Shown here piece after piece: positions 16,931-41,886 of a DNA stretch of 64,000 nt. Where the stretch lies: assembly GCF_000382705.1 (NCBI RefSeq), contig NZ_ARQE01000002.1, positions 372,001 through 436,000 on the forward strand, written 5' to 3'. The first letter of the stretch is position 1. Every line of letters starts with the position of its first letter. This DNA is from Aureimonas ureilytica DSM 18598 = NBRC 106430 (GTDB taxonomy: Bacteria; Pseudomonadota; Alphaproteobacteria; Rhizobiales; Rhizobiaceae). A program made the translations under genes and the position numbers. The notes beneath the pieces were generated by a model, which worked only from the letters and a program-made list of their open reading frames with translations, made no database searches and was not told the origin of the DNA.

Positions 16931-16954
16931 GGAACCGAAACGACCCTCCGGCGG

Positions 16955-22676: not shown

Positions 22677-22699
22677 TTCCCCGTCAAAGGATCAGATCC

Positions 22700-25025: not shown

Positions 25026-25343
25026 GGCACACCACCCGCGGCGTTTCCGTGTCGTCCCGGGCATTGCTGGTGTCGGCGGCCGGAACATGGTCCGACGGAC
25101 GAAAGCCCATGCGAATCCTTTTCGACGCGGCGCTCATGGGTACCGTTCCTGCGATGCGTCGAGACGCAGAGTCTCGGGAGGAGGCGATGCGAACCCTCGC
25201 CTCGACGTCTCGGGTCGGCGCCCCACCTTGCCAGAAGCCGCATCGATATACGGAAACCGGCGCTGTCGGAACGGTCCCCGTTGCCTGCGTCAGCAGTCCT
25301 CTGCCGCCGTTTTCCGAGGACGCGAAGGATGGTGCCTCGGCGC
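25026..25343. other. Gap between the MFS gene and alanine dehydrogenase
   Basis: This 318-bp stretch contains no supported gene. CGAGAC-GCAGA-GTCTCG (about 25159-25175) is a small hairpin that could serve the end of the long minus-strand operon arriving from the right. The MFS promoter must also lie here. Confidence 0.45.
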
Positions 25344-26453
25344 CTACAGCAAGCTGTCGGCCTCGACGCTCTCCATGCCGTGCGCCTCCGCGACCGGGGC
25401 GCAGGTGACCTTCCCTTCGCATACGTTGAGACCGTTGCGCAGGTGCGGGTCGTCGCGCAGGGCCTGATTCCATCCCTTGTCGGCGAGCGCGACGATGAAC
25501 GGCAGCGTCACGTTGCCGAGGGCGAAGGTGGAGGTGCGGGCCACCGCGCCCGGCATGTTGGCCACACAGTAGTGGACGACGCCGTCGACGACGTAGGTCG
25601 GATCGGCATGGGTCGTGGCGCGCGAGGTCTCGACACAGCCGCCCTGGTCGATGGCGACGTCGACGATGACGCTGCCGGGCTTCATGCCCCTCACCATTTC
25701 CCTGGTGACGAGCTTCGGCGCCGCCGCGCCGGGGATCAGCACCGTACCGATCACGAGGTCGGCCTCGCGGACGAGTTCCTCGATCGCCGAGCGGGTCGAG
25801 AACTGCGTGCGGATGGACGCGCCGAACTGCGTCGACAGCCGTTTCAGCGTTTCCGGCGAGCGGTCGACCACGGTGACGTGGGCGCCCATGCCGACGGCGA
25901 TGGTGGCGGCATGCGTGCCGGACACGCCGCCGCCGAGCACGACGACGTTGGCGGCGGGAACGCCGGGAACGCCGCCGAGAAGGACGCCGCGGCCTCCCTG
26001 TGCCTTCTCCAGCGAATGCGCGCCGACCTGCGGCGCGAGCCGCCCGGCGACCTCGGACATCGGGACCAGCAGCGGCAACGAGCCGGCCGCCGAGGTCACG
26101 GTCTCGTAGGCGATGCAGACCGCGCCCGAGGCGATCAGGTCATTCGTCTGCTCGAGGTCGGGCGCGAGGTGCAGGTAGGTGAACAGGATCTGCCCGGGCC
26201 GAAGGCGCTTGCGCTCCTCCGCCAGCGGCTCCTTGACCTTCACGACCATGTCGGCGGCGAACACCTCGTCGAGGCTGGTGGCGACGGTCGCCACTGCCGC
26301 GCGGTAGTCGTCGTCCCCGAGACCGATTCCGGCCCCCGCCCCGCTCTCGACGACCACCTCGTGAGCGCGGTGTACGAGCTCGGCCACCGCTCCGGGCGTC
26401 ATGCCGACGCGGAACTCGTTGTTCTTGATCTCTTTCGGCACCCCGACGCGCAT
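25344..26453 (-). CDS. ald: Alanine dehydrogenase
   Basis: The 369-residue protein (ATG 26453, GGAGGAA upstream) matches bacterial Ald in length and motifs: MRVGVPKEIKNNEFRVGMTP at the N-terminus, catalytic Lys74 in VVKVKEPLAEE, His95 in LFTYLHLAPD, and the NAD motif VVLGGGVSGTHAATIAVGMG. Ald interconverts alanine and pyruvate plus ammonium with NAD in the cytoplasm. It is the last gene of the minus-strand catabolic operon, 70 bp after the aminotransferase. The natural role is to turn the alanine made by that aminotransferase back to pyruvate, releasing the substrate nitrogen as ammonium. Confidence 0.95.
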   Translation of the reverse strand: MRVGVPKEIKNNEFRVGMTPGAVAELVHRAHEVVVESGAGAGIGLGDDDYRAAVATVATSLDEVFAADMVVKVKEPLAEERKRLRPGQILFTYLHLAPDLEQTNDLIASGAVCIAYETVTSAAGSLPLLVPMSEVAGRLAPQVGAHSLEKAQGGRGVLLGGVPGVPAANVVVLGGGVSGTHAATIAVGMGAHVTVVDRSPETLKRLSTQFGASIRTQFSTRSAIEELVREADLVIGTVLIPGAAAPKLVTREMVRGMKPGSVIVDVAIDQGGCVETSRATTHADPTYVVDGVVHYCVANMPGAVARTSTFALGNVTLPFIVALADKGWNQALRDDPHLRNGLNVCEGKVTCAPVAEAHGMESVEADSLL

Positions 26454-26523
26454 GCGCTTCCTCCCGGTGGTCGCGGCTCCGGACCCGCGGGTGCGGGCCC
26501 GGTCGGTTCGGCGGCAGCGGCCC

Positions 26524-27849
26524 TTAGGCCGCCGCGGCGATGGACCTTCCCAGGACCTCGACGATCTGGCCGATCTGCCCCCGCTCGATGACGAGCGGCG
26601 GGGACAGGGCAATGATGTCGCCCGTCGTGCGGATGAGAAGACCCTTCTCGAAGCAGTCGACGAACACGTCGTAGGCGCGCGCGCCAACCGCGCCGTCGCG
26701 TGACTCCAGCTCGATGCCTGCGATGAGACCGATCGTGCGGATGTCGGTGACGTGGGGCAGGCCCTTCAGCGAGTGCATCGCCGCGTCCCATTCCGCCTGG
26801 ATCTCCTTCGGGCGCGCGAACAGTCCCTCGCTCTCGTAGATGTCGAGCGTCGCGATGCCGGCCGCGCAGGCCGCCGGGTGGCCGGAATAGGTATAGCCGT
26901 GGAACAGCTCGATCGCGCCCTCCGGGCCCTGCATCAGGGCATCGTGCACCTTGCGGTTGGCGAAGACCGCACCCATCGGCAGCACGCCGTTGGTGAGGCC
27001 CTTGGCGGTGGTGAAGAGGTCGGGGACGACGCCGAAGTGGTCCGTGGCGAACGGCGAGCCCAGGCGCCCGAACCCGGTGATGACCTCGTCGAAGATGAGG
27101 AGGATGCCGTGCTTGTCGCAGATCGAGCGCAGGCGTTCGAGGTACCCCTTCGGCGGCGGCAGGACGCCCGTCGAGCCGGCGACGGGCTCGACGATGCAGG
27201 CCGCGATCGTCTCTGCGCCGTGCAGGGCGACGAGGCGCTCCAGGTCGTCGGCAAGCTCGGCCCCGTGTTCCGGCTGACCCTTCACGTAGCCGTTCCGGAC
27301 GGGGTCGAAGGTGTGGCGCAGGTGGTCGGTGCCGGGGAGCTGCGGGAAGACGCGTCGGTTGTTCACGAGGCCGCCGACCGAGATGCCGCCGAAACCGACG
27401 CCGTGGTAGCCGCGCTCGCGCCCGATCAGGCGCGTCCGGGTCCCCTGCCCGATGGCGCGCTGGTAGGCGATCGCGATCTTCAGGGCGGTGTCGACGGACT
27501 CCGACCCCGATCCCGTGAAGAAGATGCGGTCGAGCTTGCCACCCTCAGGGCCCGGGGCGATCTTGGCGAGGCGCTCGGCGAACTCGAAGGCGATGGTGTG
27601 GCCCATCTGGAAGGACGGGGCGTAGTCCAGCGTCATGAGCTGGCGCTCGACGGCTTCCGCGATCTGGCGGCGGCCATGCCCGGCGTTCACGCACCAGAGG
27701 CCCGCGGTCCCGTCGAGGACCGTCCGGCCGTCGTCGGTGGTGTAGTGCATGCCGTGCGCGCCGACGAAAAGGCGGGGTGCCTTCTTGAACTGGCGGTTGG
27801 CGGTGAAGGGCATCCAGTAGCTCTCGAGGGACGGCTGGTTGGGGCGCAT
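26524..27849 (-). CDS. Omega-amino acid:pyruvate aminotransferase (class III)
   Basis: The 441-residue product begins MRPNQPSLESYWMPFTANRQ, the N-terminus typical of beta-alanine:pyruvate aminotransferases. PLP-site features are FTGSGSESVDTALKIA, the Asp in LLIFDEVITGFGRLG and the Schiff-base lysine in FTTAKGLTNGVLPMG. These enzymes pass the amino group of beta-alanine, taurine or similar omega-amines to pyruvate, giving alanine and a semialdehyde. It sits between the demethylase genes (26 bp gap) and alanine dehydrogenase, which would close the pyruvate/alanine cycle. The exact donor amine is not determined. Confidence 0.9.
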   Translation of the reverse strand: MRPNQPSLESYWMPFTANRQFKKAPRLFVGAHGMHYTTDDGRTVLDGTAGLWCVNAGHGRRQIAEAVERQLMTLDYAPSFQMGHTIAFEFAERLAKIAPGPEGGKLDRIFFTGSGSESVDTALKIAIAYQRAIGQGTRTRLIGRERGYHGVGFGGISVGGLVNNRRVFPQLPGTDHLRHTFDPVRNGYVKGQPEHGAELADDLERLVALHGAETIAACIVEPVAGSTGVLPPPKGYLERLRSICDKHGILLIFDEVITGFGRLGSPFATDHFGVVPDLFTTAKGLTNGVLPMGAVFANRKVHDALMQGPEGAIELFHGYTYSGHPAACAAGIATLDIYESEGLFARPKEIQAEWDAAMHSLKGLPHVTDIRTIGLIAGIELESRDGAVGARAYDVFVDCFEKGLLIRTTGDIIALSPPLVIERGQIGQIVEVLGRSIAAAA

Positions 27850-27875
27850 GGGATGTGTCCTGGAGTTGGAGCCGG

Positions 27876-30320
27876 TCAGGCGAGGATGCGGGACGAGGTC
27901 GGGTCGTACATCGGCTTCAGCGACGCCTCCGCCGGGACGCGGACGCCCGCGATCTCGATCTCGTAGGTCGACGCGAGGAGTTCCTCCTCGTCCTGGTTCT
28001 CGCAGGGGACGTAGCCCATGCCGATCGCGCCGCCGAGGTGGTGGCCGTAGTTGCCGGACGTGACGATCGAGACGATCCGCCCGTCGCGTACCACGGCCTC
28101 GTTGTGGAAGAGCAGCGGCTCGGGGTCCTTCAGGCGGAACTGGACGAGGCGCCGCTTCAGCCCCGCCTCGCGCTTGCGCAGCACCGCGTCCCGCCCGATG
28201 AAGTCGCCCTTCTTCGTCTTGACCGCGAAGCCGAGGCCCGCCTCGAGGACATGGTCCTCATCCGTGATGTCGTGCCCGAAGTGGCGGTAGGCCTTCTCGA
28301 TGCGGCAACTGTCGAGCGTGTGGATGCCGCAGAGCTTCAGGTCGAACTCGCGGCCGGCCTCCCGGATCGCCTCGAAGGCGTGGGCCGCCTGGTCGCTCGG
28401 CACGTAAAGTTCCCAGCCCAGCTCGCCCACGTAGCTGATGCGGTGGGCCCGGGCGAGGCCCATGCCCAGCTCGATCTCGCGGGCGGTGCCGAAAGGGAAC
28501 GCCTCGTGCGACAGGTCGTCCGGCGTGACGCGCGACAGCAGCTCGCGCGAGCGCGGACCCTGCACCACGAGCACGGCCTCGCCCGCGCTGACATCCGTGA
28601 GAACGGCGAATTCGTCGCGAAGCTGCTTGCGGAGCCACGAGAGGTCGCGGGTGAAGGTCGCGACCGGGACGACCAGCAGGTAGGCCGTCTCGGACAGGCG
28701 CGTCACCGTGAGGTCGCTCTCGATGCCGCCCCGCTCGTTCAGCATCTGGGTGTAGACGATGCGGCCGGCCTTCACGTCGACGTCGTTGGCGCAGACGCGC
28801 TGGAGGAAGCGGCAGGCGTCACGCCCCTCGACGCGGATCTTGCCGAAGGAGGACATGTCGAAGAAGCCGACGTTCTCGCGGACGGCCTTGTGCTCGGCCG
28901 CCTGGTTGCCGAACCAGTTCTGCCGCTTCCAGGAGTAGCGGTACTCGTGCTCCTGGCCTTGCGTCGCGAACCAGTTCGGCCGCTCGAAGCCCGCGACCTC
29001 GCCGAAGACGGCGCCCTCGTCCCTCAGGACGGCGTGCAGCGGGGAACGGCGCACCCCGCGGGACGTCGCCATCTGACGGTAGGGGAAGTGGTCGGCATAG
29101 AGGAGGCCGAGCGTCTCGGACACGCGCTCGCGCAGGTAGCTGCGGTTCTTCTGGAAGGAATGGGCGCGGCGGATGTCGACCTCCCAGAGGTCGAAGGGCG
29201 GCTCGCCGTCGTTCATCCACTGGGCGAGCGCCATGCCGGCGCCGCCCGACGAGACGATGCCGATCGAGTTGTACCCCGCGGCCACCCAGTAGCCCTTCAG
29301 CTCCGGCGCCTCGCCGAGGTAGTAGCGGTCGTCGGGCGTGAAGCTCTCCGGGCCGTTGAAGAACGTGTGGATGCCTGCCGTCTCCAGCATGGGCATCCGG
29401 TTGATCGCCTTCTCGAGGATCGGCTCGAAGTGGTCGAAGTCGTCCGGCAACTGGTCGAAGCAGAAGTCCTCCCGGATGCCGTTCATGCCCCAGGGCTTCG
29501 CCTTCGGCTCGAACGCGCCGAGAAGCATCTTGCCCGCGTCCTCCTTGTAGTAGGCGCACTCGTCGGGGACGCGCAGGACGGGCAAGCGCTGGAGGTCGGG
29601 GATCGCCTCGGTGACGATGTAGAAGTGCTCGCAGGCGTGGAGAGGCAGCGTCACGCCCGACCGGGCGGCGAAGTCGCGTCCCCACATGCCGCCGCAGTTG
29701 ACGACCATGTCAGTCTCGATCGTGCCTGACTCGTTGCCGTCGGTCCACGAGACGCCCGACACCCGCCCGTCGCGCTGGAGGACTTCCGTCACCTTCACGT
29801 CCTCGACGATCTGGGCCCCGCGCTGTCGGGCGCCCTTGGCAAGCGCCATGGCGATGTTGGCGGGGTCGCACTGGCCGTCGAGGGGAAGGTGCACCGCGCC
29901 GACGACGTCGCCGATGTTGAGGTGCGGGTACATCGCCTTGGCTTCCTCCGGCGAGATCTCCGCGACGTCGACGCCGAAGGCGCGGGCGAGCGTCGCCTGG
30001 CGGTAGATCTCCTCCCGGCGCTCCGGCGTCAGGGCGACCGTGATCGAGCCGCACTGGCGCATGCCCGTCGCGACGCCGGTCTCCTCCTCGAGACGGACGT
30101 AGAGGTCCGCGGAGTACTTGGCGAGGCGCGTCATGTTCTGCGAGGCGCGGAGCTGGCCGATGAGGCCGGCCGCGTGCCACGTCGTGCCGGAGGTCAGCTT
30201 CTTGCGCTCGAGGAGGACGATGTCGGTCCAGCCGAGCTTGGCGAGGTGGTAGGCCACGGAGCAGCCGGACACGCCGCCGCCGACGATGACGACGCGGGCC
30301 TTAGCAGGAAGGTTGGTCAT
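27876..30320 (-). CDS. FAD- and folate-dependent demethylase, dimethylglycine/sarcosine dehydrogenase-like (second of pair)
   Basis: The product is 814 residues, the length of mitochondrial DMGDH. An N-terminal DAO-type FAD domain starts VVIVGGGVSGCSVAYHLAKL. LTSGTTWHAAGLIG contains the His that holds FAD covalently in DMGDH. A linker domain is followed by a C-terminal GcvT-like tetrahydrofolate domain (about 430-800) with SYVGELGWELYVPSDQ. Such proteins oxidise N-methyl groups, pass electrons to ETF and load the carbon on tetrahydrofolate as 5,10-methylene-THF. The ATG overlaps the preceding paralogue by 4 bp (ATGA at 30317-30320). Its homology to that paralogue suggests sequential demethylations of one molecule. 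Confidence 0.9.
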   Translation of the reverse strand: MTNLPAKARVVIVGGGVSGCSVAYHLAKLGWTDIVLLERKKLTSGTTWHAAGLIGQLRASQNMTRLAKYSADLYVRLEEETGVATGMRQCGSITVALTPERREEIYRQATLARAFGVDVAEISPEEAKAMYPHLNIGDVVGAVHLPLDGQCDPANIAMALAKGARQRGAQIVEDVKVTEVLQRDGRVSGVSWTDGNESGTIETDMVVNCGGMWGRDFAARSGVTLPLHACEHFYIVTEAIPDLQRLPVLRVPDECAYYKEDAGKMLLGAFEPKAKPWGMNGIREDFCFDQLPDDFDHFEPILEKAINRMPMLETAGIHTFFNGPESFTPDDRYYLGEAPELKGYWVAAGYNSIGIVSSGGAGMALAQWMNDGEPPFDLWEVDIRRAHSFQKNRSYLRERVSETLGLLYADHFPYRQMATSRGVRRSPLHAVLRDEGAVFGEVAGFERPNWFATQGQEHEYRYSWKRQNWFGNQAAEHKAVRENVGFFDMSSFGKIRVEGRDACRFLQRVCANDVDVKAGRIVYTQMLNERGGIESDLTVTRLSETAYLLVVPVATFTRDLSWLRKQLRDEFAVLTDVSAGEAVLVVQGPRSRELLSRVTPDDLSHEAFPFGTAREIELGMGLARAHRISYVGELGWELYVPSDQAAHAFEAIREAGREFDLKLCGIHTLDSCRIEKAYRHFGHDITDEDHVLEAGLGFAVKTKKGDFIGRDAVLRKREAGLKRRLVQFRLKDPEPLLFHNEAVVRDGRIVSIVTSGNYGHHLGGAIGMGYVPCENQDEEELLASTYEIEIAGVRVPAEASLKPMYDPTSSRILA

Positions 30321-32773
30321 GCGCGCATTCTTTCGTTGTTCGGGTCCCAGAGGGCCTGGTCTGCGGCGACGGTCGCCCGGAAGGGCGTCCCGAAAATCTC
30401 CACCTCGACGACGGTGCCGGGTTCGGTCAGGTCGGCCCGGAGCATGGCGAGGGCGATGGAACGGTCCGTGCGGTAGCCGTAGGCCCCGGACGTCGTCTCT
30501 CCGACGATCTCCCCGCCGTGGCGGACCGTCGACATGTACGGGGCGTCGTATTCCCCCGGCTCGAGCACCAGCGTGGCGAAGCGCCGGGCCACCCCGCGCT
30601 CCCGCTCGCCGAGCAGCGCCTCCCGCCCGAGGAAGTCCGGCTTGTCCCATTTGACGAAGCGCTCGAGACCGCCCTGGAGGACGCTGTAGTCCGTCGAGAG
30701 GTCGGCCTTCCACGCTCGGTAGCCCTTCTCGAGGCGGAGGGAGTCGAGGGCGAACATGCCGAAGGGCTTGAGCCCGTGCGGCTGCCCGGCATTCCAGACG
30801 GCGTCGAAGATCGCGGCCGTGTCCCCGACCTCGCTGTGGATCTCCCAGCCGAGTTCCCCGGCGAAGGACACGCGGACGAGGCGGCAGGGGCGTCCCGAGA
30901 TCCGGGCCTCCTGGTGCGACAGCCACCCGCGGGACAGGTCGGCGCCCTCGACCACCGACGCGAGGATCTCCCTCGAGCTGGGTCCGGTCAGGATCTGGCA
31001 GGTGAACCTCTCGGACACGTCCTCGAGGCGAAGCGAGCCGTCGGCCGACAGGTGGCGGACCAACCAGTCGCGGTCATGCCACTGCGCGACGGCCGCGGTC
31101 ACCAGCAAGAAGGCGTCGTCGGCAAGGGCGAGGACCGACATCTCCGTGACGATGCGCCCGCCCTCGTCGGCGAAGTAGGCGAGGCCGAGCCTGCCTGGCT
31201 TGGGGACGGCGCCGGTCGTCATGCGCGCCAGCCAGTCGCGCGCACCCGCCCCCTCCAGCGTGAAGCGCGAGAAGCCCGGCAGGTCGAGGATGCCCGCGGC
31301 GTCGCGGACGGCGAGGCACTCCTCGCGCACCCGCCGCTCCCACGGGCCGTCGCGGCGGTAGGTCAGCGTCGACTCCTCGGAGGTGTCGTCGCCCGGGGCG
31401 GCGTACCAGTTCGCGCGCTCCCAGCCGTTGTACGGACCGAACTGGCCGCCGAGGGCCTTCATCCGGTCGTGCAGCGGGGAGTGACGGCGGCCGCGTCCGG
31501 CGGGCCAGACGTGACGCGGGAAGTGGATGGCGTACTCGTGCCCGTAGACCTCCATGCCCTTGGCGACGCAGTGGTCGTCATCGGTGTAGGCGGTGAAGCG
31601 GCGCGGGTCGCAGGACCACATGTCCCACTCGGTGCGCCCCTCCGTAACCCACTCGGCGAGCACCTTCCCGGCGCCGCCCCCTTGCGCTATGCCGAAGGTA
31701 AAGACGCAGGCCTCGAAGGCGTTCGGGACGCCCGGCATCGGCCCGATCAGCGGATTGCCGTCGGGCGCGTACGGAATGGGTCCGTTGATGACCTTCTGGA
31801 GGCCGGCCGTGCCAAGGATCGGCACGCGCTCCATGGCGTCGTTGAGATGCCATTCCAGGCGCTCGAGGTCGTCGGGGTAGAGCTGGAACGAGAAGTCCGC
31901 CGGCATCGGGTCGTCGGGTGTCGTCCAGTGGGCCCGGCAGTTCCCCTCGTACGGGCCGAGGTTCATGCCGTTCTTCTCCTGCCGGAGGTAGTAGGAGCTG
32001 TCGACGTCGCGCAGCAGCGGCAGCTTGTGCCCCTGCTCGCGAGTCCAGGCGGCGATCTCCGGGATCTCGTCGAACAGAATGTACTGGTGGCTCATGACCG
32101 TCATGGGCACGTCACGGCCGAACATGCGCCCGACCTCGCGCGCGCGGTAGCGAGACGCGTTCACGACGAACTCGCATCGGATCTCGCCCGACCCCGTCTC
32201 GACGACCCATTCGCCGCGCTCCCGGCGGGCGCCGGTCACCGGACAGAAGCGGACGATCCTCGCGCCCATGTCCCGCGCGCCCTTGGCGAGCGCCTGTGTC
32301 ACCTGCGCGGGGTCGATGTCCCCGTCGTTGGGATCGTAGAGGACACCTTTGAGGTCATGGGTTTCGAGGAACGGGTAGAGCCGCTTCAGCTCGTCGGTGC
32401 CGAGCACCTCCATGGCCATGCCCTGGTGGCGGCCCATGCCCTTGGCGCGGCGGAACTCGAGCATCCGCTCGTCCGTGTGGCCGAGGCGGAGCGACCCAGT
32501 GACGTGGTAGTTGATGGGGTAGTCGACTTCGGCGCCAAGCCGCTTGTAGAGTTCGGTCGAGTAACGCTGCATGTTCATCAGCGACCACGACCCAGAGAAG
32601 GTCGGACAGTTCCCGGCCGCGTGCCAGGTCGAGCCGGACGTCAGCTCGTTCTTTTCGAGGAGGACGCAGTCGGTCCAGCTTGCCTTCGCGAGATGGTAGA
32701 GGGACGAGACCCCCACGATGCCGCCGCCGATGATCACGACGCGCGCCCTTGTCGGTAGTTCGGCCAAGTTCAT
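30317..32773 (-). CDS. FAD- and folate-dependent demethylase, dimethylglycine dehydrogenase-like (first of pair)
   Basis: The 818-residue product starts at the ATG at 32773 behind GGGAGGC. It carries the FAD motif VVIIGGGIVGVSSLYHLAKA, the covalent-flavin His in LTSGSTWHAAGNCP and a C-terminal GcvT folate domain with VSFAGELGWEIHSEVG. The His motif diverges after WHAAG (NCPTFSG instead of LIGQLRA), so substrate pocket or order of action may differ from the downstream paralogue. It lies 47 bp after etfA and overlaps the next gene by 4 bp, ensuring equal translation of both demethylases. Glycine, beta-alanine or proline betaine derivatives are all possible substrates. Confidence 0.9.
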   Translation of the reverse strand: MNLAELPTRARVVIIGGGIVGVSSLYHLAKASWTDCVLLEKNELTSGSTWHAAGNCPTFSGSWSLMNMQRYSTELYKRLGAEVDYPINYHVTGSLRLGHTDERMLEFRRAKGMGRHQGMAMEVLGTDELKRLYPFLETHDLKGVLYDPNDGDIDPAQVTQALAKGARDMGARIVRFCPVTGARRERGEWVVETGSGEIRCEFVVNASRYRAREVGRMFGRDVPMTVMSHQYILFDEIPEIAAWTREQGHKLPLLRDVDSSYYLRQEKNGMNLGPYEGNCRAHWTTPDDPMPADFSFQLYPDDLERLEWHLNDAMERVPILGTAGLQKVINGPIPYAPDGNPLIGPMPGVPNAFEACVFTFGIAQGGGAGKVLAEWVTEGRTEWDMWSCDPRRFTAYTDDDHCVAKGMEVYGHEYAIHFPRHVWPAGRGRRHSPLHDRMKALGGQFGPYNGWERANWYAAPGDDTSEESTLTYRRDGPWERRVREECLAVRDAAGILDLPGFSRFTLEGAGARDWLARMTTGAVPKPGRLGLAYFADEGGRIVTEMSVLALADDAFLLVTAAVAQWHDRDWLVRHLSADGSLRLEDVSERFTCQILTGPSSREILASVVEGADLSRGWLSHQEARISGRPCRLVRVSFAGELGWEIHSEVGDTAAIFDAVWNAGQPHGLKPFGMFALDSLRLEKGYRAWKADLSTDYSVLQGGLERFVKWDKPDFLGREALLGERERGVARRFATLVLEPGEYDAPYMSTVRHGGEIVGETTSGAYGYRTDRSIALAMLRADLTEPGTVVEVEIFGTPFRATVAADQALWDPNNERMRA

Positions 32774-32820
32774 GCCTCCCGGTTCGTTCCTCGGTCCGTC
32801 GACGCCGTCGCCCCGTGCGG

Positions 32821-33750
32821 TCAGAGCTTCCGGGCGAGTTCGGGCAGCGCCTCGAAGATGTCCGCGACGAGTCCGTAGTCGGCGACCTGGAAGATCGGCG
32901 CGTCGGCGTCCTTGTTGATGGCGACGATGACCTTGGAGTCCTTCATGCCCGCGAGGTGCTGGATCGCTCCCGAGATGCCGCACGCGACGTAGAGGTCGGG
33001 TGCAACCACCTTGCCCGTCTGGCCGACTTGGAGGTCGTTGGCGGCGTATCCGGCGTCGACCGCGGCCCGGCTGGCCCCGACGGCGGCGCCGAGTTTTTCC
33101 GCAAGCGGCACCACCAGCTCGTCGAACCGCTCGGCCGAGCCCAGCGCGCGGCCGCCGGACACGACGACGCGCGCCGACGCGAGGTCGGGACGGTCGGACG
33201 ACGACAGGGCTTCCGAGACGAAGCGCGACAGGCCCGGGCCACCCTCTCCGGCCAGGACCTCGACGGGGGCCGAACCGCCCTCGCCCGTCGCGGCGAAGGA
33301 AGCGGTCCGAACCGTGACGACGCGCCGGGGGCCGGTTGCCCGAACCGTCTGGATGGCGTTGCCCGCGTAGATGGGACGCTTGAAGGTGTCGGGGGAGACC
33401 ACGTCGACGACCTCGGAGACCTGGGCGACGTCGAGCAGCGCGGCGACGCGCGGCAGGACGCTCTTGCCCGTCGACGTGGCGGCCGCCATGACCGTCACGT
33501 AGGCCGGCGCGAGGCGGACGACAAGCGCGGCGGTGGGCTCGGCGAGCTGTCCGGCGTTTGCCGCGTCGTCAGCGAGCAGCACCTTGGCGACGCCCGACAG
33601 GCGTGCGGCCGCGTCGGCGACGGCGCGCGCGCCGTTGCCCGCGACGAGGACGTGGACGTCCTCCCCGATCGCAAGGGCGGCCGACAGCGCCTTGGCGGTC
33701 TGCTCGGACAGGGTTGCGTTGTCGTGGTCGGCGAGAAGCAGGGTCGTCAT
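32821..33750 (-). CDS. etfA: Electron-transfer flavoprotein alpha subunit
   Basis: The 309-residue product ends with the FAD-binding domain of ETF alpha: [38 protein letters not shown] and [20 protein letters not shown], closing with [20 protein letters not shown]. With EtfB it forms a soluble heterodimer holding FAD and AMP that carries electrons from the two demethylases to ETF:quinone oxidoreductase. The ATG at 33750 is 22 bp after etfB. Its location directly upstream of the demethylase genes suggests a dedicated, substrate-specific ETF copy in addition to a housekeeping pair elsewhere. Confidence 0.95.
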
Positions 33751-33772
33751 CGTTCCGTTCCTTTCCGGCCGT

Positions 33773-34519
33773 TCAAAGGACGCCGTCGGCCTTGAGCCGT
33801 TCGACGAGCTCGTCGACCGACGCGACGCGGACGCCGGCCGAGCGGGCACCGGGCTCCTCCGTCCGCAGGACCTCGAGCATCGGTGCGGTCGACACGCCGT
33901 AGTCGGCGGGGGAGCGTGTCTCGAGCGGCTTCTTCTTGGCCTTCATGATGTTCGGCAGGGACGCGTAGCGCGGCTCGTTGAGCCGGAGGTCGGTCGTCAC
34001 CACCGCAGGCAGCGTCAGCTCGACCGTCTGCGACCCTCCGTCCACCTCCCGCGTCACCATTGCCTTGCCGTCGGCGACTTCCACCTTGGAGGCGAAGGTG
34101 CCCTGCGCCCATCCGAGCAGGGCGGCGAGCATCTGGCCCGTCTGGTTGCTGTCGTCGTCGATGGCCTGCTTGCCCACGATGACGAGGCCGGCCGCCTCTG
34201 CCTCGACGACGCCCTTCACGATCTTGGCGACGGCGAGCGGCTCGACCGGGTCGTCGGTCTGAACGAGAATTGCACGGTCCGCGCCCATGGCGAGCGCGGT
34301 CCGCAGCGTCTCCTCGGACTTCGCGGGTCCGACGGAGACGACGACCACCTCGGAGGCGATCCCCTTCTCCTTGAGCCGGATGGCCTCCTCGACGGAGATC
34401 TCGTCGAAGGGGTTCATCGACATCTTCACGTTGGCGAGGTCGACGCCGGAGCCGTCCGGCTTCACGCGGACCTTGACGTTGTAGTCGATGACGCGCTTGG
34501 CGGTTACGAGCACTTTCAT
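33773..34519 (-). CDS. etfB: Electron-transfer flavoprotein beta subunit
   Basis: The 248-residue protein begins [20 protein letters not shown] and has the AMP-binding core ([20 protein letters not shown]) and the conserved [18 protein letters not shown] segment near the C-terminus, the ETF-beta recognition loop region. It pairs with EtfA encoded next. It starts 16 bp after the PotC-like permease stop, joining the transporter and catabolic parts of the operon. Confidence 0.95.
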
Positions 34520-34535
34520 GGCTGCATGTTCCTTG

Positions 34536-35366
34536 TCAGGCGTCGGTCGGGGCTTTGGCGAGCCGCTGCTGACGCGCCTGGAGGGCGTTGGCCGTCAGCA
34601 TCAGGGCCGCGGCGAAGACGATGAGCAGGGTGGCGACCGCCGTGATGCTCGGGCTGATCTGCTCGCGCAGGCCCGTCCACATCTGGCGGGGCAGCGTGCG
34701 CTGGTCCGGCCCGGACACGAACAGGGCCACCACGACGTCGTCGAACGACGTGACGAACGCGAAGATCGCGCCGGACACGATGCCGGGCATGATGACCGGC
34801 AGGGTCACGAGGCGGAAAGCGGTGACCGGGGACGCGCCAAGGCTTGCGGCGGCCCGCGTGAGGCGGTGGTCGTACCCGGCGAGCGTCGCGGCCACCGTGA
34901 TGGTGACGAACGGCGCACCGAGCGCCGTGTGCGCGAGGACGAGGCCGGTCAGCGTGTTGAGGAGGCCGATCCCGGCGTAGAGGTAGAAGATGCCGACCGC
35001 CGCCACGACGACCGGAATGACGATCGGCGACACGATCACCGCGGCGATGAGCTTGCGCCCGGGGCACTCGGGGCGCGTCAGGCCGAGGGCGGCCATCGTG
35101 CCGAGAGCGGTCGCGAGGACGGTCGAGCAGATCGCCACGACGAAGCTGTTGCCCGCAGCGAGCTGCCACACGGGCGAGGAGAATACCTCCCGGTACCATT
35201 GTAGGGACAGCCCCGGCATCGGGTAGGTGAAGAACGGCTCGGAGTTGAAGGACAGCGGGACGATGGCGAGGATCGGCGCCATCAGGAAGGCGAGGACGGC
35301 CGCCGAGTAAGCCCGCAGCACCTTGCGAGCGACGGGGGTGGGCGTCCGGGTGAGTTTCGCGCTCAT
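34536..35366 (-). CDS. ABC transporter permease, PotC-like (polyamine/opine/betaine type)
   Basis: The 276-residue inner-membrane protein has six helices. The start [20 protein letters not shown] overlaps the PotB-like gene by 4 bp. The EAA loop that contacts the ATPase reads [20 protein letters not shown] (about 180-200), and [16 protein letters not shown] is the PotC-type signature. With PotB, PotD and PotA homologues it forms a complete import complex for small cationic or zwitterionic organic nitrogen compounds. Confidence 0.9.
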
Positions 35367-36652
35367 CGGGCCGCCTCCTTCTGCCGGGCGGCGAAGGCGA
35401 CGACGAGCGCCACGTAGAACACGGCGACGATGGAGAGCAGGACGACGGAGAGCGCGGCCGCCATGCCCCAGTTCGACTGGTTCACGAAGTAGGCGATGAA
35501 CGAGCTGAGCATCTGGTCGGTCGGGCCGCCGACGAGAGCCGGGGTGATGTAGTAGCCGAGCGCCAAAATGAAGACGAGGAGCCCGCCGGCCGCCACGCCC
35601 GGCAGGGTGAGCGGCAGGTAGACGTGGACGAAGTTCCGCAGCGGGGCCGCCCCGAGCGACGACGCCGCGCGCCAGTAGGCCGGGGAGATGCCCTTCATGA
35701 CGGCATGGATGGGCAGGACGACGAACGGCAGGAGGATGTGGGTCATCGCGATCAGCACGCCGAGACGGTTGTGGACGAGTTCGAGGGGTTCGGAGACGAC
35801 GCCCAGCCAGCGAAGGGCGGAGTTCACGACGCCGTTGCTCTGGAGGAGCACGAGCCAGGCGGTCGTGCGGACGAGGAGCGATGTCCAAAATGGCAGGAGC
35901 ACGAGCATCATCAGCCACCGCGCGTCGCGCTCGGACGAGGACGCCAGCATGTACGCCAGCGGATAGCCGATCAGCAGGCACAGGACGGTCACGGACGCGC
36001 TGGTCGCCAGGGTCCGGAGGATGACGGCGACGTAGACCGCGTCGTCTTTCGCCGCGCCGATCGACCCGTCCTCGCCGCGCGTCAGGTCGAGCGCCTTCAG
36101 GAGGTAGTAGTCCGTCAGCGACGACGACGAGCGCCGGATGAGGTCCCACGTGGCGGACTCGCCCCACCGTTCGTCGATCGACACGAGCTGCGCCCGGGCC
36201 GTCTCCGGCTGGACCTCGTCGATGTCGCGCATCGTGCGGTTCAGCAGCGTTCGGAACCCCGGCGCGACGTAGTTCAGTCGCTTGGCAACCTCCGCGACGT
36301 CCTCCTTCGGCCTGTCGCGCAGGTCGGTCGCGAGGGCGGCGAAGACCGTGTCCTGCGGCAGCTCCCCGGCCTTCGACCCGGCCAGCGCCTCCACGGTCTC
36401 CGGCAGGACGGAGGCGACCTGCCGGTTGTCGGCAGACTGGAACAGGAGGAGGCCGATCGGCAGGATGAATGTGACGAACAGGAACAGGAGGAGCGGCGCG
36501 ACGAGCCCGAACGCGGCGAGGCGGCTGCGCCGCGACGAGCGCGCGAGCCGGCGTCGCAGGTCCGAATCCGGCGCTCCGTCGCGGACGGCGGCATCGCGGC
36601 CGCCGGACGCGGCCCGGGTGACTGTTGCTTCCATCGGGAGTGCGCTCCTCAT
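35363..36652 (-). CDS. ABC transporter permease, PotB-like, with a large N-terminal periplasmic insertion
   Basis: At 429 residues this is about 140 longer than ordinary PotB proteins. Helix I (LAAFGLVAPLLLFLFVTFIL) is followed by a hydrophilic block of about 120 residues (from DNRQVASVLPETVEALAG to ALDLTRGEDGSIG) rich in Asp, Glu and Arg, before the remaining helices. The EAA loop is AASSLGAAPLRNFVHVYLPL. The insertion should lie on the periplasmic side and might contact the binding protein. Similar long PotB-like permeases occur in proteobacterial opine/polyamine-type systems. It overlaps the PotC-like gene by 4 bp. Confidence 0.88.
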   Translation of the reverse strand: MRSALPMEATVTRAASGGRDAAVRDGAPDSDLRRRLARSSRRSRLAAFGLVAPLLLFLFVTFILPIGLLLFQSADNRQVASVLPETVEALAGSKAGELPQDTVFAALATDLRDRPKEDVAEVAKRLNYVAPGFRTLLNRTMRDIDEVQPETARAQLVSIDERWGESATWDLIRRSSSSLTDYYLLKALDLTRGEDGSIGAAKDDAVYVAVILRTLATSASVTVLCLLIGYPLAYMLASSSERDARWLMMLVLLPFWTSLLVRTTAWLVLLQSNGVVNSALRWLGVVSEPLELVHNRLGVLIAMTHILLPFVVLPIHAVMKGISPAYWRAASSLGAAPLRNFVHVYLPLTLPGVAAGGLLVFILALGYYITPALVGGPTDQMLSSFIAYFVNQSNWGMAAALSVVLLSIVAVFYVALVVAFAARQKEAAR

Positions 36653-36722
36653 CTTCGGGCTCCTGTCGATCCGCCGGGCGATCGCCGTTCCGGCGGATCG
36701 GGTTGCTGGTGGTCGGACCCCG

Positions 36723-37808
36723 CTACTTGGCGAGCCAGGTGTTGAAGCGCTCGGTCAGCTCCTCGTCGTGGTCGGCCCAGAACTCGGCGGAGAGCGAGAA
36801 GGAGTTCTTCGCGTTCTCGGGAGCCGTCGGCAGGTTCGGCAGGATGTCGGCGGGCACCATCTTCGCGGCGTCGACGTTCGAGGGGCCGTACGGGATGTAC
36901 TTCGTCTGCTCGGCGAGCTGCTCGGGCTTGCTGGCGAAGGCCACGAACTGCTTGGCGAGGTCCTCGTGCTTGGCGCCCTTCGGGATCGCCCACATGTCCC
37001 AGTCGAGCCCGGCGCCGTCCCACACGATCCGGAACGGCTTCCCGTTCTGCTTCACCGCGTCGTAGATCCGGCCGTTGTAGGAGGTGGTGATCGCCACCTC
37101 GCCGTCGGCGAGGAGCTGGGGCGGCTGGGCGCCCGCGCCCCACCAGACCTTCACGTCCGGCTTGATGGTGTCGAGCTTGGCGAAGGCGCGGTCGACACCC
37201 TCCTTCGTCTCGAGCACGTCGTAGACCTCGGCGGGCTTCACGCCGTCGGCGATGAGCGCGAGTTCAAGCGTGGACTTCGGCGACTTGCGCATCGAGCGCG
37301 CGCCTGCGAACTTCTGGACGTCGAAGAAGTCGGCGGCCGTCTGCGGCCCGCCGTTCGGGAACTTCGTCTCGTCGTAGGCGATCACGTAGGCGAAGGCGAC
37401 GTTGCCGACGGCGCAGTCGAGAGCGGCGCCCGGCAGGAACTTGTCGCGGCCCCCGAGGGAGTCGTAGTCGATCTCCTGGAGCCAGCCCTCGTCGCAGCCT
37501 TGCAGGGCATGGCCCGGCTCGACGTCGACCACGTCCCACGTGACGTTGTCCGTCTCCACCATGCCCTTGAGCTTGGCGGTCTCCCCGCTCCACTCGTCGG
37601 TGAGGATCTTGGCGCCGGTCTCCTTCATGAACGGCTGGAAGAACGCCTTGTCCTGGCTCGCCTGGTACGCCCCGCCCCAGGAGGCGATGTTCAGGCTCTC
37701 CTGCGCGCTGGCGCCGCCCGCGAGGAGGACGAGCGACGCGCCGCACAGCCCAAGGGACCGGACGATGCGACGGAGGGAGGCATGCTGATGCGTCGGGCTC
37801 ATTTCCAT
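36723..37808 (-). CDS. Periplasmic substrate-binding protein, PotD-like (family 1 extracellular solute-binding)
   Basis: The 361-residue product has a Sec signal peptide (LRRIVRSLGLCGASLVLLAG, cleavage after ASA at about 36), then the mature start QESLNIASWGGAYQASQ. Aromatic residues in SWGGAY, WWGAGAQ and WDGAGLDWDMW are placed as in spermidine/putrescine and betaine-type binding proteins, where they form a cage round a positively charged amine. This suits a methylated amine ligand. It is 46 bp after the ATPase gene and 70 bp before the PotB-like gene. Confidence 0.9.
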   Translation of the reverse strand: MEMSPTHQHASLRRIVRSLGLCGASLVLLAGGASAQESLNIASWGGAYQASQDKAFFQPFMKETGAKILTDEWSGETAKLKGMVETDNVTWDVVDVEPGHALQGCDEGWLQEIDYDSLGGRDKFLPGAALDCAVGNVAFAYVIAYDETKFPNGGPQTAADFFDVQKFAGARSMRKSPKSTLELALIADGVKPAEVYDVLETKEGVDRAFAKLDTIKPDVKVWWGAGAQPPQLLADGEVAITTSYNGRIYDAVKQNGKPFRIVWDGAGLDWDMWAIPKGAKHEDLAKQFVAFASKPEQLAEQTKYIPYGPSNVDAAKMVPADILPNLPTAPENAKNSFSLSAEFWADHDEELTERFNTWLAK

Positions 37809-37854
37809 TCTCCTGTTTTCCGTTCGGTTGCTGGATGCGCGCCGGGAGGAAGGG

Positions 37855-38976
37855 TCAGTTGTCCAGGAGGGCGCGGCAGTCGCGGGTGTTCCAGCCGATC
37901 GAGACCCGCTGGCCGGGCGAAAAGTTCGACGGCGATCCGACGCTGCTGGGAAGCTTGACCTCGACGCTCTCGCTTCCGAGGGCCGCCACGCGGACGCGGA
38001 TGTGATCGCCGAGGTAGATGACCTCGCGGACGGTTGCGTCGGCCGACGCGTCCGTCGCCGGGGTCGCGGAGATCGTCAGGCGCTCCGGGCGGATCGAGAG
38101 GGTGGTCGCGGCGCCCTTGGCGAGTCCCGGCACCGCGGACGCGCGGACGACTTCCGCACTGTTGCCGACCCGCACCGTGCAGGATCCGGCGTCGAGGTCG
38201 ACCACCTGCCCGCGGATGGCGTTGTTGTCGCCGATGAAGCGGGCGACGAAGGGGTTCGATGGACGCTCGTAGATCTCGGTCGCCGTGCCGAGCTGCTGCA
38301 CGCGCCCGTCGTTGAAGACGGCGATGCGGTCGGACATCGTCAGCGCCTCGCCCTGGTCGTGCGTGACATAGACGATCGTCACGCCGAGGCGCTCGTGCAG
38401 GTGTTTGAGCTCGATCTGCATGTGCTCGCGCAACTGCTTGTCGAGTGCCCCGAGCGGCTCGTCCATGAGGACCAGCGACGGCTCGAAGACGAGGGCCCGG
38501 GCGAGCGCGATGCGCTGCTGCTGGCCGCCTGAGAGCTGGGCGGGCCGCCGGTCGGCGAACTTGCCCATCTGGACCATGTCGAGCGCCTTGGCGACGCGCG
38601 CCGCCTTGTCCGGGGCGCCAAGTCCCCGCATCCGCAGGGGGAAGCCGACGTTCTCGGCGACGCTCATGTGCGGGAAGAGGGCGTAGTTCTGGAAGACGAC
38701 GCCGATGCCCCGCTTGTGCGGCGGCAGCCGCTCGATCGGGCGGCCGTCGAGGAGGATCGTGCCCGCCGTCGGCGTCTCGAACCCCGCCAGCATCATCAGG
38801 CATGTCGTCTTGCCGGAGCCGGACGGCCCGAGCATCGTCAGGAACTCGCCGCGCCGGATGTCGAGGTCGAGCCGCTTCACGACGATGCTGACGCCGTCGT
38901 AGGTCTTCTCGACGCCCTCGAACCGCACGAGGGCATCCCCCTGCTCCAGACGCGGCTTCGCATGCGGATCCGCCAT
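37855..38976 (-). CDS. ABC transporter ATP-binding protein, PotA-like
   Basis: The 373-residue ATPase from the ATG at 38976 has Walker [10 protein letters not shown]-loop [17 protein letters not shown], signature [15 protein letters not shown], Walker [13 protein letters not shown] and H-loop [10 protein letters not shown], followed by a C-terminal TOBE regulatory domain (about 270-373). It heads the minus-strand catabolic operon, facing the XRE-cupin regulator over a 364-bp gap with an AT-rich operator-like region. It energises the PotB/PotC-like permeases encoded downstream. Confidence 0.93.
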
Positions 38977-39164
38977 GACGGACGACCTCCTGTCGCTGTC
39001 CGCCGGCTCGGGGACGGGCGCACGGCTCCGGCGCGGTCGCCGCGGCGACCCCGGTGGATCCCTTGCCGTCCGCACGGGGCGGAGCTTCGATTGCTAGAAA
39101 CTTCCCTCCCCCGGCCGACGAACGTCTCCCGCATCGGCTGGGTGGATTTCACAGGCTCGCTGCA

Positions 39165-39240
39165 CTTGCGGACCAATGCATTCCATACAAAAAATCATTT
39201 TACAAGCATGAAAAAATGATGCCTAATTTTCACGCATCGC
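39165..39240. promoter_or_regulatory. AT-rich divergent control region with nested inverted repeats
   Basis: The 364-bp gap (38977-39340) between the importer operon and the XRE-cupin gene contains the most AT-rich patch of this region. AATGCATT (39175-39182) is a perfect palindrome. ATCATTTT (39194-39201) and AAAATGAT (39213-39220) form an inverted repeat with an 11-bp spacer, with GCAT..ATGC nested in it. These are good candidates for the binding site of the adjacent regulator and for the two divergent promoters. The rest of the gap shows nothing else. Confidence 0.55.
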
Positions 39241-39340
39241 AGCATCGCGTTTGGCGGCGCGACGATCTTCATGCAAGCAACGGAGGCTCGGATGAGCTAA
39301 CGTCGGACCTTCCCGCCGGAGCACCCTCGAAGGATACGCA

Positions 39341-39955
39341 ATGCCCTCCCTCAGCATCCGCCGCGCATCGAACACGACCGAGGCCGACCTGTCCGAACTG
39401 GACGAGGCCGCCATCGGCGGGCAGATCCGCGAGCTCCGGAAGGTGAAGGGGATGACGTTGCAACAGGTCGCCGAGGTCGCGGACGTCTCAGTGGGCTATC
39501 TCAGCCAGATCGAGCGCAACCAGAGCAAGCTGCCGATCGGGGTCCTCAAGCGGATCAGCAACGCGCTTGGGATCCAGATGAGCTGGTTCTTCCATGCCGC
39601 TCCCGACGTCCCGGCGGACGAACGCGACTGGATCGTGCGCGCCCACAACCGCCGCAAGTTCTCCTTCACGGGCATCGGCATCCTCGAGGAACTCCTGACG
39701 CCCAACCTCAGCGGCCCGCTCGAGCTTCTGATGAGCACGATCGAGCCGGGCGCGGACAGCGGCGACTACAGCCACGACGGGGCGGAGGCCGGCCTCGTCG
39801 TCTCGGGGCGGCTCGACCTCTGGATCGCGGGGCGGTTCTTCCAGCTTGAGGAGGGAGACAGCTTCTCCTTCAAGAGCACCGAGATCCATCGCTGTGCGAA
39901 CTCGGGCGACGTCCCGACCAAGGTCGTCTGGGTGATCACCCCGCCCCACTACTGA
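39341..39955 (+). CDS. XRE-family regulator with C-terminal cupin sensor
   Basis: The 204-residue protein has a helix-turn-helix at about 28-80 ([20 protein letters not shown] then [14 protein letters not shown]) and a cupin_2 domain at about 125-200 ([40 protein letters not shown]). Cupin-XRE regulators such as PuuR and related proteins control amine and amino-acid catabolism and sense the substrate or a product in the cupin. Divergent to the importer operon and upstream of purU and folD, it is the likely local regulator of both arms. Confidence 0.9.
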
Positions 39956-39961
39956 TCGGCG

Positions 39962-39985
39962 GCGCCCCGCGCGGGCGCGGCTTTT
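39962..39985 (+). terminator. Intrinsic terminator after the XRE-cupin gene
   Basis: GCGCCC (39962-39967) and GGGCGC (39973-39978) flank CGCGC and are followed by GGCTTTT, a short stem with T-tract. It separates the regulator from purU. Confidence 0.6.
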
Positions 39986-40072
39986 CCCTACTTGAGACCA
40001 CGACCGCCCCACCGTCGACGACGGCCGGGGAACGACCTCCCTTGCCCTGCGCCTATTTCAGGAGACGCCACC

Positions 40073-40924
40073 GTGCCCCAAAGGTTCATCCTCAACCTTG
40101 CGTGCGAAGACCGTCCCGGCATCGTCGCCGGCGTGACCACCGAACTTGCCGCGGTCGGCGCGAACATCGTGGAGTCGGGTCAGTTCTGGGACACCCTGAC
40201 GAACCGCTTCCTCATGCGTATCGCCTTCGCGGCGCCGGACGGCCTGACGAAGGACGCCGTCGAGCGTGCGCTGAAGCCCGCCGTCGACCGCTTCGGCCTC
40301 AAGGCGACGCTGACCGAGTCCGCCAGGAGGCCGCGGATCGTCATCATGGTCTCGAGGTTCGACCATGCCATGCTGCACCTCCTGTACCAGATCCGCGTCG
40401 GCTGGCTCGACGCCGAGGTGGCAGCAATCGTGTCGAACCACGAGGACAGCCGGAGGACCGCCGAACTGGAGGGCATTCCCTTCCACTGCTGGAAGGTCGA
40501 CAAGTCCAACAAGGCGGAGCAGGAGGAGCGCCTGCTGGAGCTCGTGCGCGAGACCGGCGCCGACCTCGTCGTACTGGCCCGCTACATGCAGGTGCTCTCG
40601 GACAACCTCTCCAAGCGCCTGTTCGGCAAAGCCATCAACATCCACCATTCCTTCCTGCCGAGCTTCAAGGGCGCCAAGCCCTACCACCAGGCACACGAGC
40701 GCGGCGTCAAGCTCATCGGCGCGACAGCCCACTACGTGACGAGCGACCTCGACGAGGGGCCGATCATCGAGCAGGAGACGGAGCGGGTGAACCACTCGAT
40801 GACGGGCGACGACCTCGTCGCGACGGGCCGCGACGTCGAGAGCCGCGTCCTTGCCCGCGCGGTGAAGAGCCACCTCGAGGGCCGGGTCATGCTGAACGGG
40901 CACAAGACGGTCGTGTTCGCGTGA
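40073..40924 (+). CDS. purU: Formyltetrahydrofolate deformylase
   Basis: The 283-residue product starts with GTG at 40073, chosen because AGGAG lies at 40060-40064. An N-terminal ACT domain (about 1-85, [20 protein letters not shown]) precedes a formyltransferase-like domain with [20 protein letters not shown], which holds the catalytic Asn/His, and [18 protein letters not shown] with the Asp. PurU hydrolyses 10-formyl-THF to formate and THF. Beside folD and opposite folate-linked demethylases, its role is to recycle THF and dispose of methyl-derived carbon. The stop overlaps the folD GTG start. Confidence 0.94.
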
Positions 40925-41886
40925 GCGCGCTGCATGAGCCCGCCGCCCGCAGCACGGCACGGGTGATCGACGGCAAGGCGACGGCTTCCCGCGTCCTGGA
41001 ATGGGTGACCGCGAGGGCCTCCGAACTCGAACGAGCTGGGACGCGTCCGGGCATTGCGGTGGTGATTGTGGGCGACGACCCAGCGAGCAAGGTCTACGTC
41101 GCGTCGAAGGCGCGCGCGGCCGAGGCATGCGGCTTTCATTCGGTGACGCACCGCTTGCCGGACCAAACGGCGCAGGCAGACCTCCTGGCGCTCGTCATGC
41201 GGCTGAACGGCGACCCGGCGATCCATGGCATCCTGGTCCAGCTCCCGTTGCCGGGGCACCTCGACGCCGCGGCGGTCATCGGCGCGGTCTCGCCCGCCAA
41301 GGACGTCGACGGGTTCCATGCCTTGAACGCCGGGCGGCTCTGGAGCGGGGGCCTGAGCGACGCCTTCGTGCCATGCACGCCCGCAGGAGCGATGCTGCTT
41401 GTCGAGCAGGTCCACGGACGCGACCTCTCCGGGCTCGAGGCGGTGGTTGTCGGACGCTCGAACATCGTCGGCAAGCCCATGGCCGCCCTGCTCCTTGCGG
41501 CGAACGCCACCGTCGCGGTCGCCCACAGCCGCACGCGGGACCTGCGCGACGTGTGCCGCCGCGCGGACATCCTCGTCGCGGCGGTCGGGCGTCCCGGGCT
41601 GATAGGAGGCGACTGGATCAAGCCCGGTGCGACCGTCATCGACATCGGCATCAACCGCGTCCCGGCGCCGGAACTCGGCGAGGGACGGTCGAGGTTGGTC
41701 GGCGACGTGGATTACCCGGCGACCCTTGGCGTGGCGGGCGCGGTGACCCCCGTGCCCGGCGGCGTCGGACCGATGACGATCGCGATGCTGATGGCGAACA
41801 CCCTGTCCTCGGCGGCGCGCACCGCGGGCATGCCCTCCTCGCCTTTCGTGGCAGGTGCCGATGCCCAGCGGAACGAAGGATGGTAG
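40921..41886 (+). CDS. folD: Methylene-THF dehydrogenase / methenyl-THF cyclohydrolase
   Basis: The 321-residue product begins at GTG 40921, overlapping the purU stop (GTGA). Catalytic Tyr59 and Lys63 lie in [15 protein letters not shown], the substrate loop is [13 protein letters not shown] and the NADP region is [32 protein letters not shown] closes the family pattern. FolD oxidises 5,10-methylene-THF to 10-formyl-THF, which PurU then cleaves. The pair therefore converts the methyl groups removed by the demethylases to formate. It is about 25 residues longer than housekeeping FolD at its C-terminus. Confidence 0.95.

Follow-up and report, generated by a model that had tools for sequence, protein, structure and literature searches.

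The 64,000-nucleotide stretch analysed here, called the window throughout, lies on contig NZ_ARQE01000002.1 (positions 372,001 to 436,000) of Aureimonas ureilytica DSM 18598, whose genome assembly comprises 5.09 Mb and is 99.98% complete. At 25344 to 41886 it carries a putative operon for the import and demethylation of an N-methylated omega-amino acid. A 13.7-kb minus-strand run (25344 to approximately 39075) encodes, in order of transcription, PotA, PotD, PotB, PotC, EtfB, EtfA, DM2, DM1, AptA, and Ald; an XRE-cupin regulator, PurU, and FolD are encoded on the opposite strand and diverge from this run (Table 1). Every gene named for the locus in an earlier sequence-only reading was present with family support, the PotB-, PotC-, and PotD-like proteins and the XRE regulator scoring below the cut-offs of the named families. 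DM1 and DM2 share the domain order DAO-FAO_M-GCV_T-GCV_T_C, and their genes overlap by ATGA. Neither Rieske GbcAB nor MttB, by which a glycine-betaine catabolic locus would be recognized, was found among the open reading frames (ORFs) of the locus, and no tRNA (ARAGORN) or Rfam family (gathering scores) was detected within the window.

Table 1. Genes of the demethylase locus, with window coordinates, strand, and family support (bit score, with the family cut-off in parentheses).
Gene	Product	Coordinates (strand)	Length	Family support	Remarks
ald	Ald, alanine dehydrogenase	25344..26453 (-)	369 aa	TIGR00518 517 bits (391.9)	ORF extends to 26687
aptA	AptA-type class III omega-aminotransferase	26524..27849 (-)	441 aa	NF052567 709.5 bits (500)	
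DM1	FAD/GcvT demethylase, MABO lineage	27876..30320 (-)	814 aa	DAO, FAO_M, GCV_T, GCV_T_C	
DM2	FAD/GcvT demethylase, DMGDH lineage	30317..32773 (-)	818 aa	DAO, FAO_M, GCV_T, GCV_T_C	
etfA	EtfA, electron-transfer flavoprotein (ETF) alpha subunit	32821..33771 (-)		PF00766, PF01012	Start approximate; ORF to 33849
etfB	EtfB, ETF beta subunit	33773..34519 (-)		PF01012	
potC	PotC-like permease	34536..35366 (-)		NF007047 176 bits (326), below cut-off	Start approximate; ORF to 36167
potB	PotB-like permease	35363..36652 (-)		NF007963 176 bits (489), below cut-off	N-terminal extension
potD	PotD-like substrate-binding protein	36723..37808 (-)	361 aa	PF13416; below cut-off of named equivalog	
potA	PotA-like ATPase	37855..39075 (-)		TIGR01187 377.5 bits (355.6)	Start approximate
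xre	XRE-cupin regulator, PuuR-like	39341..39955 (+)		NF007408 62 bits (211), below cut-off	
purU	PurU, formyl-tetrahydrofolate (THF) deformylase	39992..40924 (+)		TIGR00655 326.5 bits (286)	
folD	FolD, methylene-THF dehydrogenase/cyclohydrolase	40954..41886 (+)		NF010785 458 bits (396)	

The full locus, defined as FolD-PurU-XRE divergent from PotA-PotD-PotB-PotC-EtfB-EtfA-DM2-DM1-AptA, was found six times including the window. The five other copies fetched are all carried on plasmids, in Rhizobium ruizarguesonis, Agrobacterium vitis, Agrobacterium tumefaciens H25/79, Sinorhizobium fredii NGR234, and Rhizobium leguminosarum, and because the order recurs in these five, the arrangement is more than chance. 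Between the window and the other full loci, PotC is 76 to 79% and XRE 75 to 78% identical. ETF-QO, which is absent from the window, adjoins folD in all five, a placement that fits dehydrogenases rather than oxidases. The locus is thus a real, conserved catabolic module, plasmid-borne in five relatives. The gene-neighbourhood search that the sequence-only reading had proposed recovered the gene order but not ald, which none of the five contains, so that alanine dehydrogenase, counted as part of the set in that reading, is not conservedly linked to it.

Outside these loci, the components differ in how widely they are distributed. In a plasmid search, identity to DM2 reached 60% or more in 15 of the 984 records that matched it, and identity to DM1 did so in 33 of 1293; record CP050557 matched PotD, DM2, DM1, and AptA, the last three in pieces. 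DM1 homologues at E<=1e-250 occurred in 96 of the 385 genomes sampled in the class, including the window genome. PotD at E<=1e-150 was found in 4 of 394 genomes sampled in the family (the window genome and three with 65 to 69% identity, with G850 and G1104 as two cases at 65%) and, among the matches listed, in none of 7 genomes of the same genus. A sample of the order yielded PotD homologues at E<=1e-80 in 117 of 397 genomes, the window genome again included, and besides it only G281 and G087 exceeded 60% identity; the stretches read around these two homologues contained neither DM1 nor DM2. The PotABCD importer of the locus is therefore rare.

The lineage of the two demethylases was assessed against MABO (4-methylaminobutanoate oxidase, demethylating), an enzyme of nicotine catabolism encoded on plasmid pAO1 (NZ_CP089294) of Paenarthrobacter nicotinovorans, to our knowledge the single known demethylase of N-methyl-gamma-aminobutyrate (N-methyl-GABA), a substrate that it strongly prefers. 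The pAO1 gene, of DAO-GcvT type and annotated as an FAD-dependent oxidoreductase, has purU on one side and folD on the other and was identified as MABO by this place in the described operon. MABO shares 42% identity with DM1 (625 bits) and 32% with DM2 (357 bits), and the two window proteins are 34% identical to each other (396 bits). In an IQ-TREE phylogeny of 29 proteins, which included rat dimethylglycine dehydrogenase (DMGDH) and A. globiformis DMGO and was built without any sarcosine dehydrogenase, MABO and all 16 DM1-type proteins formed one split and 10 DM2-type proteins formed another with rat DMGDH, each with an ultrafast bootstrap (UFBoot) support of 100. The solved structure nearest to both DM1 and DM2 is DMGDH, with DM2 scoring 566 bits against the rat enzyme (4pab). 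The WHAAG motif is present in DM1, DM2, and MABO. The dyad positions of chain 1pj5, which we take to be His225 and Tyr259, align with His and Tyr in DM1, and the same columns hold His and Tyr in DM2 and MABO; such a dyad is common to the bacterial oxidase and human DMGDH (PMC5082570). By domain order, motif, dyad, and grouping, DM2 resembles a dimethylglycine dehydrogenase, and DM1, which groups with MABO rather than with DMGDH or DMGO and is linked to purU and folD, resembles a MABO-type demethylase.

Two described systems share parts of this chemistry. MABO is reported to produce GABA and methylene-THF from N-methyl-GABA, and its operon also contains folD and purU (PMC6214936). The pAO1 operon is like the locus in that a DAO-GcvT demethylase of the DM1 clade is flanked by purU and folD and passes its methyl carbon to THF and then to FolD and PurU, the product there being GABA. 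It differs in that MABO has neither a DMGDH-type partner nor ETF, an ABC importer, or AptA next to it, in that MABO is an oxidase, and in a regulator, PmfR, of another family; the window PurU and FolD are 49% and 42% identical to their pAO1 counterparts. Mammalian DMGDH shares the domain order, the WHAAG motif, and THF and ETF as methyl and electron acceptors, but it is one enzyme acting on dimethylglycine, and DM1 falls outside its lineage. No description of the operon itself was found in the literature searched, where most subscription papers were out of reach. The view of the sequence-only reading, to which no description of such a route was known, is not supported, as pAO1 purU-mabO-folD demethylates N-methyl-GABA to GABA by the same FolD/PurU logic. 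As judged from its genes, the locus adds a DMGDH-type enzyme, ETF, an importer, and an omega-aminotransferase to MABO-type chemistry and is thus an uncharacterised variant of a described kind.

The importer was examined through the pocket of its substrate-binding protein (SBP). The solved structures nearest to PotD are the Pf622 GABA sensors 9d57 and 6dgv, followed by 8jv1, 6hly, and 4eq7; the SBP relatives 8jv1 to 8jv4, which score as well as the GABA binder Atu4243 (Gts), could not be traced to a ligand. In Pf622, GABA is contacted by W9, T13, F100, Y102 (engineered from F), W202, R205, D228, and Y264 (PMC12999171). PotD has W44, Y48, V137, F139, Y244, R247, D271, and a Tyr at the corresponding positions, so that five contacts are identical (W, F, R, D, and Y), W202 is conservatively replaced by Y, and the T13 and F100 positions are changed. 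PotD belongs to the same SBP family as Atu4243 and Pf622, with which it shares the GABA-site Arg and Asp. All 19 sequences compared have this Arg, and the four homologues with 64 to 67% identity have Asn in place of the Asp. The site fits, but does not prove, a zwitterionic omega-amino acid as ligand. Plasmids of R. leguminosarum and R. indicum carry a PotD homologue of 66 to 67% identity, and the idea that it is the GABA transporter Gts was considered and dropped; in one of these loci the Gts-like SBP belongs to a neighbouring system (85% identical to Atu4243 and 35% to PotD).

AptA scores above the cut-off of the omega-amino acid:pyruvate transaminase family NF052567, and its nearest solved structures are beta-alanine/omega-amino acid:pyruvate transaminases (4uhm, 4b98, and 3a8u); it differs from described members in being part of an operon with demethylases. 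Its closest plasmid relatives (12 records, 80 to 84% identity) include none from the full loci. Five regions examined outside such loci, with AptA at 75 to 83% identity, have the gene divergent from a cupin gene (four) or a helix-turn-helix gene (one), and no demethylase is annotated beside it in any of them. AptA was therefore probably recruited into the operon.

Together, we propose that the locus is a catabolic operon for an N-methylated C3-C4 omega-amino acid, likeliest 4-(dimethylamino)butyrate or N-methyl-GABA and next the beta-alanine homologue, which would be converted first to the omega-amino acid and then to the semialdehyde; we assign this reading a probability of about 0.5. The steps are deduced from sequence, with gene content, conserved order, phylogenetic placement, and pocket residues as the direct results. 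A zwitterionic methylated omega-amino acid would be imported by PotABCD. DM2, of the DMGDH lineage, would remove the first methyl group from the tertiary amine, and DM1, of the MABO lineage, would remove the second from the secondary amine to yield the primary omega-amino acid. In both steps THF would accept the methyl carbon and the ETF encoded in the locus the electrons; methylene-THF would then be converted to formate by FolD and PurU, with THF regenerated. AptA would then convert the omega-amino acid and pyruvate to the semialdehyde and alanine, the former proceeding through an aldehyde dehydrogenase encoded elsewhere; in the window genome, Ald would return alanine to pyruvate and ammonium. 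Both arms would be under the control of the XRE-cupin protein. MmsA, which acts on malonate semialdehyde, is encoded in the window genome (647 bits; cut-off, 448.5). The proposed substrate 4-dimethylaminobutyrate is known to be made by a microbe, Eubacterium limosum (PMC8604678), which speaks for the proposal. An omega-amino acid is favoured as substrate because of the family of AptA and the MABO lineage of DM1. The scheme laid out in the sequence-only reading, in which demethylation proceeds in two steps linked to THF and ETF, FolD and PurU dispose of the methyl carbon, and the product feeds an omega-aminotransferase, is supported by the kinship of DM1 with MABO, the GABA-like PotD pocket, and a separate glycine-betaine route in the same genome.

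The genes of that probable route lie on another contig (C6, 85001-104000). The region encodes SoxB (715 bits; cut-off, 529) and SoxA (1433; 1164), together with a GbcA-like Rieske protein (446; 670), a GbcB-like reductase (370; 500), and a GbdR-like regulator (317; 480), these three below cut-off, and an Oxidored_FMN protein followed by an iron-sulfur protein, which by eye read as DgcA- and DgcB-like. GCV_T matched four times in the genome: DM1, DM2, the SoxA of C6, and a short match of 31 bits on contig C2. The glycine-cleavage P-protein gene gcvP had no match genome-wide, and no free full-length GCV_T protein was found. By its genes the C6 region is a Pseudomonas-type glycine-betaine locus, here in a genome lacking a gcvP match and a free gcvT. 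A separate glycine-betaine route in this genome is therefore likely and would make the demethylase locus redundant for glycine-betaine use. The sequence-only reading had argued its product from the absence of glycine cleavage, sarcosine oxidase, and Rieske demethylase genes. The first of these absences extends to the whole genome for gcvP and the free GCV_T protein, but the other two hold for the window only, and with soxB, soxA, and a GbcA-like Rieske gene on C6, an argument from genes missing in the window falls away.

The strongest alternative is ordinary dimethylglycine and sarcosine catabolism, in which DM2 would be a DMGDH, DM1 a sarcosine dehydrogenase, and the importer would serve dimethylglycine, sarcosine, or a related compound, with AptA and Ald in a side role or acting on another substrate. 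It draws on DM2-DM1 pairs elsewhere, surveyed by a contig scan with DM2 in which the best 80 of 594 confirmed loci were read with flanks of at most 10 kb, which contig ends shortened in some cases. DM1 was present at 60% identity or above in 75 of the 80 and XRE in 2. A class I aminotransferase gene occurred in 37, mostly from Mesorhizobium (for example L030 and L053), and lay between DM2 and DM1 in all 36 loci where DM1 falls within the stretch; 33 of the 37 also carried soxA and soxB, for which the two representatives tested of each were all above cut-off. A GbcA-like Rieske gene was found in 22 loci, an MttB-family gene in 16, both in 4, and a LysR gene in 30, leaving 5 without any of the neighbour labels. 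The Rieske and MttB representatives scored 268 and 336 bits, below the cut-offs for glycine-betaine monooxygenase (670) and trimethylamine methyltransferase (525), which counts against this alternative.

Several observations weigh against an omega-amino acid as substrate. DM2-DM1 pairs are common in rhizobia and closely similar to those of the window (72 to 77% identity for DM2 and 77 to 83% for DM1), they adjoin Rieske, MttB, or Sox genes, and PotABCD, EtfAB, AptA, PurU, FolD, and Ald at 60% identity or more were found in none of the 80 stretches. In a DM2 tree of 88 sequences the six full loci form a clade of exactly six (support, 0.998), and in a DM1 tree of 114 sequences the smallest clade that contains all six has eight members, the other two being L022 and L005 (support, 0.991). 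L005, from a plasmid of A. tumefaciens 1D1609, is a shortened version of the locus with FolD-PurU-XRE and EtfB-EtfA-DM1 only (9378-16448) and adjoins glycine-betaine transport genes, a Rieske gene, and a short MttB-family ORF. Only 3 positions of DM2 (compared with 79 others) and 5 of DM1 (71 others) are invariant across the full loci while 90% of the other sequences share a different residue, all of them conservative, so that no re-specialisation toward a changed substrate is visible. This lack of clade-specific change is the main evidence for dimethylglycine and sarcosine as substrates, or else for activity of the pair on omega-compounds everywhere. Further, the 29-protein tree contained no sarcosine dehydrogenase, and DM1 could be of that kind; MABO, an oxidase similar to sarcosine dehydrogenase, also demethylates sarcosine (PMC6122326). 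PotD is only 36 to 40% identical to the proven GABA binders. The AptA gene is broken in the A. tumefaciens H25/79 locus, window AptA is only 76 to 77% identical to the intact AptA of other full loci versus 80 to 84% outside them, and Ald, with no match in any locus compared, is private to the window genome.

On balance, dimethylglycine and sarcosine catabolism is a serious but tentative possibility, one sustained by the close orthologues in betaine- and sarcosine-type contexts and by DMGDH as the nearest solved structure of both enzymes. Against it, DM1 groups with MABO and not with DMGDH, GbcA/GbcB-, Dgc-, and Sox-like genes are present elsewhere in the window genome, and the AptA of all six full loci, one of them broken, would be left unexplained. 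The omega-amine product that formed the central claim of the sequence-only reading is thus plausible, on better evidence than was offered for it, but activity on dimethylglycine and sarcosine has some plausibility too.

The same enzymology could in principle serve another N-methylated amine, such as a methylated polyamine fragment, a guanidino-derived acid, or an N-methyl alpha-amino acid. In two of the loci examined, PotD homologues of approximately 52 to 54% identity are encoded next to DAO oxidases and enzymes of the arginase family; those of 66 to 67% outside the full loci adjoin MocR-, DAO-, and RidA-type genes; and of the 37 relatives with a class I aminotransferase, 36 have it between DM2 and DM1, the stretch of the remaining one not reaching DM1. 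The AptA family and MABO lineage point instead to omega-amino acids, and we regard this explanation as improbable. A route that degrades methylated taurine, or the corresponding betaine, to taurine and sulfoacetaldehyde is very unlikely, and with it the taurine product entertained by the sequence-only reading: more distant DM2 and DM1 homologues do occur near xsc in L093 and L096, the latter also with MttB and a class III aminotransferase, but the best Xsc match in the window genome (269 bits) falls far below the cut-off of 676, MttB is absent from that genome, and the xsc neighbours in L093 (choline dehydrogenase-like, TRAP, and IclR) look like an isethionate set.

Beyond the proposed catabolism of a C3-C4 omega-amino acid, DM2 and DM1 might constitute a general dimethyl-then-monomethyl series for omega-amino acids. 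The operon would then lead aerobically all the way from 4-dimethylaminobutyrate or dimethyl-beta-alanine into central metabolism, and the relatives beside Rieske or MttB genes would cover the whole path from the betaine, in the case of the marine bacterium of L096 from taurine betaine. We consider this extension rather unlikely as a whole. The L096 stretch (10488-25313, on an Alisedimentitalea scapharcae plasmid) contains an MttB-family gene, DM2- and DM1-like demethylases, a TRAP transporter, DAO, and xsc, with a class III aminotransferase nearby, and looks like a taurine-betaine route; the literature search found no paper joining "taurine betaine" with "demethyl." MtyB, an MttB-family enzyme of Eubacterium limosum, demethylates gamma-butyrobetaine once only, to 4-dimethylaminobutyrate, the further fate of which in the gut is called unknown in that report (PMC8604678). 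The DM2-DM1-AptA chain would be an aerobic route for this compound derived from gamma-butyrobetaine. A "methylaminobutyric acid" listed among the metabolites of a Mesorhizobium (PMC3875568) was not used, as its database number does not fix the identity of the compound.

Under this proposal, a pair of demethylases commonly found in rhizobia, mostly under the annotation FAD-dependent oxidoreductase, acquires a testable function and a link to the N-methyl-GABA demethylase. It also draws attention to methylated omega-amino acids as nutrients in the surroundings of plants. Should omega-compounds prove to be the substrates of DM1 and DM2, a large group of proteins would be misannotated as dimethylglycine or sarcosine dehydrogenases.

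Two further regions of the window were noted. Approximately 9 kb from the locus, 12387-16836 encodes a DAO oxidoreductase (TIGR03329, 236 bits; below the cut-off of 633), a PmfR-like activator 28% identical to pAO1 PmfR, and a GABA-permease-like protein (469 bits; below the cut-off of 678). On the other side, 47800-53294 carries a phage-integrase-family gene followed by two large ORFs without a Pfam match, has a lower GC content (0.63 to 0.66), and is possibly a mobile element beside the locus.

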